DNA of 64,000 nt, taken from NCBI RefSeq assembly GCF_024347435.1, contig NZ_AP025480.1, positions 682,001 to 746,000 of the forward strand, written 5' to 3'. Under the pieces are notes generated by a model. It saw only the letters and a program-made list of their open reading frames with translations. It searched no databases and was not told where the DNA came from. Positions 19,602 through 21,155 of this stretch are shown here, piece by piece. The position numbers and the translations under genes are program-made. How positions within the stretch are numbered: the stretch's first letter is position 1; every line of letters begins with the position of its first letter. The stretch comes from Vibrio cyclitrophicus (GTDB taxonomy: Bacteria; Pseudomonadota; Gammaproteobacteria; Enterobacterales; Vibrionaceae).

Positions 19602-19907
19602 CTAAGCGTTCACCGGTTCAGGTTTTGCTTCTAGTTTGTTCTCTTCTGGAGATAAGCTTTTCTCGTATTGACCGTACCTCTACCATGCGTAGCCAAGGAA
19701 GATCAAGATACCGCCCGCGTTGTAGAAGGTTACGGTCATGATGTCTGTGCCAGTTGGGTTGTCTTATGGTACGAAAGGCACATCAATTGGTAATAGGAAA
19801 CCTTCATCTGCGTATTTAAGATCGCTGTGGCCTTCCATTGGCCATGCAATAGTTGAAAGTAGCTGAACCGTTCTCTCTGAAACGTATTTGCATTTTTTCT
19901 TATGCAT
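19602..19907 (-). pseudogene. Relic: ebgA fragment fused to a membrane-transporter tail
   Basis: Translated on the minus strand, this stretch first reads like E. coli EbgA ([14 protein letters not shown] then PIDVPFVP, stop, DNPTG). Directly after DNPTG it becomes TVTFYNAGGILIFLGYAW, stop, RYGQYEKSLSPEENK, a hydrophobic helix with charged tail as at the C-terminus of a transporter. Stops lie at 19764-19766 and 19680-19682. The remaining order (ebgR, ebgA start, transporter end, terminator) suggests that one internal deletion removed most of ebgA and the following gene. It follows intact ebgR on the same strand, as in E. coli. The EbgA match is from memory of the family; the transporter type is not identified. 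Confidence 0.7.
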
Positions 19908-19952
19908 AATAGGTTCTTAGTGAATACGAGTACTTTTGGTTTGATATAATTA

Positions 19953-19970
19953 TTAGTAAAGTATTTACTG
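19953..19970. promoter_or_regulatory. Possible EbgR operator before the ebgA relic
   Basis: TTAGTAAA-GTA-TTTACTGA is a near-perfect inverted repeat upstream of the relic. TTTAGTAAA half-sites also occur upstream of ebgR (about 21203 and 21274). The link to EbgR is inference from position. Confidence 0.35.
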
Positions 19971-20114
19971 AATTATTGGATGGTTTTATTTTAACTTAAT
20001 CACGTTTTTATGGTCTTTTTGCGGTGCTGTGTGATCCACTTAAAAGAATGCTATTGGTTGATTTATGCAGCAGGTTAAAAAGGAGGATATGTGTCGATTG
20101 ATATATGTGATGAG

Positions 20115-20146
20115 CAAAAAAAGGCCACCTTAAATAAAGGTGGCTT
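20115..20146 (-). terminator. Terminator of ebgR
   Basis: GCCACCTT/AAGGTGGC stem with a run of seven T on the minus strand, 26 bp after the ebgR stop. Confidence 0.85.
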
Positions 20147-20171
20147 TGGTTTATTTATTTGATATTTATAA

Positions 20172-21155
20172 CTATTTTGTTGTGTCGCGCAGCTTAATTT
20201 TGCTTGGTACATAGACGCGTAATGGGATGGTTCGGCCGTCGCGCGCTTTCTCTATCAGAAGGTTAACACCTTGAATTCCCATCAGTTCAGAATGGATACG
20301 AACCGTTGATAAAGATGGGAAAGTAAACTTAGCGGTTGGGATGTCATTTACACTGATCAGCGCAATATCTTCAGGAATGCGCAATCCGTGTTCATGTATC
20401 GCTCGTAAAACGCCAATAGCGATGGAATCTGATGCAATAAACATGGCTTTAGGGTAGTCGTCAGTCGCGAGCATCTGTTTTGCAAGCTTGTAACCTGATG
20501 AGCTAGAGAAGTCACCACGGTAGATGTCTTGCTCACTGATAACGTTCTTAAGGCTACCGTATTCAGCAAAGGCTACTTCGCGAATATCAGGAGTGTTGAC
20601 GTTATCTTGTCCGCCAATAAAACCAATGCGTTGATAGCCTTGGTTGATAAAGAAGTTGGTGATCTCTTTGCTGATCAAAGCCAGGTCGATATCGACAGAG
20701 TCATAAGGTTCAGAGTGATCAGTGAAATCGACATAACAGATATTATCGCTTAGCTTTTTGGCTTGTTCGATAACCTCCGGTGTCATTCTTCCTACTAACA
20801 AAACACCTGTGATTGGCGTTGAGTTAATCTGTATTTTGCTCTCATAACAGTTGGTTAGCTTAACTTCCATCTTTTTACATTGGGTTTCAATCCCATGGCG
20901 GATTGATAGGTAGTAAGGGTCGTTAACTTCAACTTCTTGCTTGTAGTTATACAGTGCTAGAAAGTGATGGTTTTGTTTTTTACTGCTAACGGTTTTTCGT
21001 GAGCTGCTGGTTTTGTATTCCAACTTCTCTGCAATTTCAAAGATACGCCTTTTGGTCTCTTCCTTGACGCTTAATGTTGGATCTTCATTGAGAACCCTTG
21101 AAACTGTAGCCAATGATACATTCGCTTCAGTCGCGATATCTTTTAACGTTGCCAT
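20172..21155 (-). CDS. ebgR: EbgR-type LacI-family repressor
   Basis: A 327-residue LacI-family repressor, the same length as E. coli EbgR and closely matching it throughout as I remember that protein: [23 protein letters not shown], then [31 protein letters not shown] and [14 protein letters not shown] [10 protein letters not shown] near the end. ATG 21155 is preferred because AGGAAG sits seven bases upstream; a GTG two codons earlier is possible. In E. coli EbgR represses ebgAC, a second beta-galactosidase. Here its target is only a relic, so the repressor may be orphaned or may control lacZ, whose gene faces it across the relic. Confidence 0.88.

Follow-up and report, generated by a model that had tools for sequence, protein, structure and literature searches.

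Behind a full-length ebgR gene of the LacI family (20172..21155, minus strand), the window, a stretch of 64,000 nucleotides of Vibrio cyclitrophicus DNA, carries a short relic (19602..19907, minus strand) composed of the 5' part of ebgA and the 3' end of a gene for a YgjI-like permease. The relic is followed by a terminator-like inverted repeat (19547..19573) and by a lac ABC-lacZ island. The island ends in lacZ (16264..19476, plus strand), the true start of which is probably nearer 16360. Its ABC genes (11626..16188) encode a MalK-like ATPase on the minus strand and two permeases and a binding protein on the plus strand; the substrate of this transporter is assigned from its neighbourhood. 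The binding-protein gene (14963-16188) is split by a frameshift, possibly a sequencing error, and its copies in L038, L116, L117 and L118 are intact, with 408 residues and no stop.

EbgR matches the profile NF007665 over positions 1-327 of 327 with 609.9 bits (cut-off 330). The closest named EbgR relative is that of V. splendidus MOR1, with 97% identity, and the named neighbours all belong to Vibrio. By this likeness to other EbgR proteins, a Vibrio of the Splendidus clade is the likely source. A search of the organism's own genome for EbgA at E 1e-200 found none; of ebgA there is only the relic. The repressor is thus intact although its normal target has been deleted, as the original prediction held.

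On the minus strand, 19602-19907 translates into 102 codons, with two in-frame stops (TAA and TAG) before the final one and 47 open codons ahead of the first. Residues 21-55 match the EbgA model NF007666 with E 4.2e-12. The match covers only positions 79-113 of 1030, and its 44.7 bits, below the curated cut-off of 1284, are the low score expected for a fragment. Against EbgA of the nearest relatives, residues 21-54 show 74% identity. Residues 42-101 correspond to the C-terminal end of a permease that is intact in the relatives and some 500 residues long; the identity is 70-75% for six of these and 55-58% for a further three. The permease part comprises only residues 427-477 of 477, whereas a complete transporter has about 475. 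Residues 42-54, which belong to both matches, mark the place where the genes were joined at a repeat. In DNA alignments with the same six relatives, one half falls on ebgA and the other on the second permease gene, at a distance of 6.6-6.7 kb. The likeness to EbgA and to the permease is far beyond chance, and a fortuitous resemblance to EbgA was ruled out by alignment of the DNA to ebgA of seven relatives. The EbgA-like first half, the transporter-like tail, the two in-frame stops and the position between an intact EbgR and a terminator, all of which had been read from the sequence alone, are borne out by the profile match and identity to EbgA, by the permease C-terminus of nine relatives, by the translation, and by the full-length EbgR and the inverted repeat.

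A Pfam search of the relic gave no match. Relic protein matches occur in 14 of 61 genomes including its own, and every match outside its own genome covers one half only. Relic DNA matches occur in 68 of 227 same-genus genomes; among the matches listed, only the organism's own genome (G000) and G216 align across the relic junctions. In agreement with the proposed fusion, no single protein covering both halves was found in the 61 genomes, by DNA in the 227 same-genus genomes, or in a protein search restricted to lengths between 0.55 and 1.75 times that of the query, which returned two. That the relic is an assembly artefact is next to inconceivable: the genome is represented by one assembly, in which the lac binding-protein gene has a frameshift, but the relic junctions recur in the separate assembly of Vibrio sp. 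14G-20, and the EbgA half of the relic is matched at 98% by a 65-residue protein encoded on a contig of 245 bases.

The ancestral operon and the deletion junctions

The full order ebgR-ebgA-ebgC-permease-permease-ygjJ-ygjK is present in six relatives, so that the suggested search for a strain with a complete ebgR-ebgA-transporter succeeded and the deletion ends could be mapped by alignment of the flanks. In one such locus, L021, galK-galT-galE is divergent from ebgR-ebgA-ebgC, which is followed by two YgjI-like permease genes, ygjJ- and ygjK-like genes and a MATE gene. The gene order is the same in E. coli (L134), but with one permease. The Vibrio names ygjI, ygjJ and ygjK rest on gene order, on the permease matches and on the annotation of the E. 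coli record. The region in the window is a remnant of an operon of this E. coli type, ebgRAC-ygjIJK.

Four junctions separate the window from the ancestral arrangement. At J1 (19897..19908, minus strand) about 122 bp were lost, including the ebgA start codon, which is accordingly absent from the relic; the size is 119-123 bp by the junction script and 122 bp by alignment coordinates plus a small length difference. At J2 (19833..19844, minus strand) 103 bp of ebgA are missing against all seven relatives. J3 (19749..19758, minus strand), at a repeat around CCCAACNGGC, removes the rest of ebgA, ebgC, the first permease gene and most of the second, 6606-6691 bp against each of the six relatives possessing the second permease. 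The paired sites of J1, J2 and J3 in L021 are direct repeats agreeing at 11 of 12 bases, and random breakpoints were as good in 15, 20 and 5 of 100000 draws, respectively. J4 (19543..19556, minus strand) joins the terminator behind the second permease gene to the terminator behind ygjK, with the loss of ygjJ and ygjK, about 3.8 kb as taken from alignment coordinates. The two terminator arms share TGAGTGCCTTTTT in L021, a 13-base agreement that comes from reading the flanks by eye, without a control.

In all, about 10.7 kb of the ebg structural genes would have been lost through four deletions, each between short direct repeats. The repeats themselves are observed; slippage or recombination between them probably caused the deletions, and the substitutions and stops would have come afterwards. 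The original prediction had explained the fusion of EbgA to a transporter by one internal deletion. Its origin by deletion stands, but a single event is ruled out by the relic alignment, in which there are three deletions, with a fourth beside it.

L032 (8047-16116, genome G023), a relative, holds a different shortened version of the operon: it has ebgR, ebgA, ebgC and one permease gene, and the second permease gene, ygjJ and ygjK are absent before the MATE gene. The ebgA gene at G186:C1:986428-989538 contains one in-frame TGA. In L043, from 18874, the ygjJ-like gene was matched in three pieces, one of which has a stop.

The allele shared with Vibrio sp. 14G-20

The locus of Vibrio sp. 14G-20 (L038) has junctions J1-J3 and the TAA stop as in the window and lacks the TAG stop. 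The two sequences differ at 75 of 984 positions in ebgR, at 37 of 239 between the ebgR stop and the relic block, and at only 9 of 331 in the relic. The block of low difference starts at about 19932 (Fisher 3e-8 against the spacer and 0.001 against ebgR), and the step in identity is confined to about 350 bases. Elsewhere, in steps of 300 bases, the identity is 74-98% on the gal side (26300-20001) and 68-98% in the lac island. The synonymous divergence, dS, is 0.29 for galE (0.29-0.47 over galE, galT and galK), 0.35 for ebgR, 0.18 for malK, 0.26 for lacZ, 0.86 for the second lac permease and 1.07 for MATE. Since MATE (10005-11342) and galR (26551-27546), both with dS of about 1.1, are far more diverged than the genes between them, the gal-ebg-lac stretch as a whole is a mosaic.

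Because the relic differs so little while both flanks are far more diverged, a short patch carrying the collapsed allele has probably passed from one Vibrio species to another, and the step in identity suggests homologous recombination as the route. On the left the patch ends within the ebgA leader, a stretch that varies little between species, and on the right, judged by eye, near the terminator; both are good places for a crossover. Exchange of the flanks instead of the relic would give the same identity step. A joint recent transfer of the relic and the lac island, considered from the sliding identity, was rejected: the synonymous divergence in the island is 0.18-0.86, and only the relic stands out. 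It is the relic patch alone, and not the lac island, that supports transfer.

At the 247 sites invariant in the six intact relatives, changes are found in both carriers at 19, in the window only at 8 and in L038 only at none. The relic thus appears to have decayed freely, mostly in common, and the 19 shared changes indicate that some of the decay predates the separation of the two copies. That the relic is retained because it works as a small protein or RNA is hardly credible. Its 47 open codons, and the far better conservation of the block than of the neighbouring spacer between the two carriers, would be in keeping with such a role, but the relic has no ebgA start codon, the window copy has two stops and is altered at 27 of the 247 sites, and the protein search found no fusion with both halves.

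The lac island and its promoter

In L116-L118, which belong to the genomes of L023, L022 and L026, ygjK, the lac island and MATE follow in this order, with full-length ebg genes next door. Since three relatives keep ebg and the lac island together, the island, judged from these other species, probably arrived before the ebg collapse and would have settled between ygjK and the MATE gene prior to the deletions.

The divergent lac promoter contains a GalR-type operator (12839..12854) with 2 mismatches. An operator of this type with 2 mismatches of 16 is present in all five islands (window, L038, L116, L117 and L118), and for each of them none of 300 shuffles was as good. The operator is called GalR-type for its resemblance to the perfect site upstream of galE (21413..21428, 0 mismatches to GTGTAAACGTTTACAC) and because of a GalR homologue at 26548-27546, which scores 454.5 bits, below the cut-off of 557; another LacI-family protein could bind the lac operator. 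An exact TTTASTAAA, the EbgR-type site, was found in none of the five divergent lac promoters.

It had been suggested that EbgR may now act on the neighbouring lacZ. The operators argue otherwise, and EbgR does not appear to control lac. Its re-use as a repressor of the lacZ island is quite improbable: EbgR is intact and close to lacZ, and the lac promoter contains a stretch that departs from the 9-base EbgR-type site at 1 position, but the best tandem match there has 5 mismatches of 18, a score that 36 of 300 shuffles attain, and it shares bases with the GalR-type operator. Upstream of lacZ the best tandem match has 8 mismatches (reached by 245 of 300 shuffles), and the five islands with the GalR-type operator include those of three species that keep ebgA.

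The remaining repressor

An exact EbgR-type site, TTTAGTAAA, lies upstream of ebgR at 21274..21282, within TTTTAGTAAAA, which is identical in 11 of 11 aligned sequences. A second exact copy of TTTAGTAAA, at 21201..21209, is found in only part of the relatives. The decayed operator of ebgA (19953..19971, plus strand) departs from TTAGTAAANNNTTTACTAA at 1 of its 16 fixed positions and, counted as a tandem, has 2 mismatches of 18, whereas the two sites upstream of ebgR are exact. These operator assignments are consensus matches and hence putative. Of 49 named loci, 47 have TTTASTAAA in the 600 nt upstream of ebgR, the exceptions being L048 and L051, and E. coli has it too. In 30 of the 49, and again in E. 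coli, the 1.1 kb behind ebgR contain an operator resembling TTTAGTAAAACTTTTACTAAA, with no more than 2 mismatches of 21; the other 19, mostly from Aliivibrio and Photobacterium, have 3-9 mismatches, about 5 being near chance as judged from a similar pattern.

The upstream site is also present where galE is not adjacent (Aliivibrio L066-L068 and E. coli), which argues for self-regulation of EbgR. Because intact EbgR-type sites lie in its own promoter, EbgR most likely persists as a self-regulated repressor, and perhaps it touches the divergent galE operon. At least one exact site is found upstream of ebgR in six galE-adjacent loci without ebgA (window, L038, L120, L121, L071 and L078) and none in L048 and L051, which lack ebgA and have also lost gal. 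That selection maintains EbgR to sense galactosides on behalf of its own gene and of the divergent galETK operon nevertheless seems unlikely; if true, a repressor of one operon would have become a regulator of gal through the ebg collapse.

A conserved EbgR site upstream of MATE was also considered and rejected: TTTAGTAAA at 11392 is kept in L021, with a counterpart in L117, and is absent from L024, L032, L038, L048, L051, L116 and L118. Upstream of galR, next to a GalR-type site, there is another TTTAGTAAA (27694-27702), and 6 of the 11 relatives aligned retain it. When the own genome was scanned for the tandem operator, 4 places came within 2 mismatches, compared with 8 for a reversed control, and no further target emerged.

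EbgR survives because it lies outside both the deletions and the exchanged patch. Its dN/dS between the window and L038 is 0.049, similar to the 0.023-0.057 of six pairs with ebgA, a value that mostly records the time before ebgA was lost. A serious competitor to continued function, somewhat short of an even chance, is that EbgR is functionless and intact only through the shortness of time, or because the exchanged patch did not include it and each recipient retained its own. With 9 differences in 331 between the relic copies, few disabling mutations would be expected since the exchange. A second pair without ebgA, L120 and L121, has the same step, with 113 of 984 differences in ebgR, 55 of 306 in the spacer and 10 of 396 past the junction. 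Against loss of function, sites invariant in 21 other sequences are changed in the window at 11 of 139 positions upstream of ebgA but at only 3 of 564 zero-fold positions of EbgR (Fisher 2.7e-6); all 11 changes fall in 57 bp, perhaps as a single patch, and their excess over the degenerate EbgR sites, of which 3 of 85 are changed, does not reach significance (p 0.26). EbgR may have been orphaned too recently for decay. The dN/dS of 0.056 between L120 and L121 was rejected as a sign of retained function, the stretch past their junction being far more alike than their ebgR genes. In both of these loci ebgA is missing behind ebgR, and the loss starts just past the ebgA start.

Taken jointly, the reading of the locus as a remnant of ebgRAC-ygjIJK deleted between repeats, with the lac island in place first, a collapsed patch exchanged, and EbgR self-regulated and not controlling lac, is held with good confidence.

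EbgR without EbgA is found in 6 of 39 same-genus genomes that have EbgR at no less than 80% identity. Counted more widely, 17 of 84 EbgR-positive genomes lack EbgA; in 11 of the 17, EbgR is at 59-73% identity, and these possible paralogues were excluded from the count of 39. V. chagasii and Vibrio sp. HI00D65 (L048, 9977-12666, and L051) have a lone ebgR, about 80-81% identical, that adjoins MATE; no gal or ebg genes were found around it in the fetched 21 kb. The locus is a case of ordinary genome decay, well mapped, and not a new system: several deletions apparently mediated by repeats, a collapsed allele in two species and a repressor left over. With orphan EbgR recurring, the role of a LacI-family repressor after operon loss can be asked directly. 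In annotation, EbgR at this locus should not be taken as a sign of an Ebg enzyme.

A search for literature on ebgR together with ebgA and Vibrio found none. A published survey (PMC4052901) lists EbgR with the regulators that have odd palindromes. The locus resembles the EbgR regulon named there in its odd palindromic motif and its galactose and galactoside pathway, and differs from it in that the enzyme gene has been lost. The E. coli ebgRAC-ygjIJK operon (L134) has the genes and order of the Vibrio relatives and the same type of operator, with TTTAGTAAAAATTTTACTAAA before ebgA and TTTACTAAA before ebgR. Vibrio relatives such as L021 differ from it in having two YgjI-like permeases and a divergent galE, and in the window everything after ebgR is reduced to the relic. 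Deletions between short direct repeats are known from E. coli lacI. The breakpoint repeats of about 10-13 bp are alike in the two cases; here, in contrast, four events fall in one operon, and their product is common to two species.
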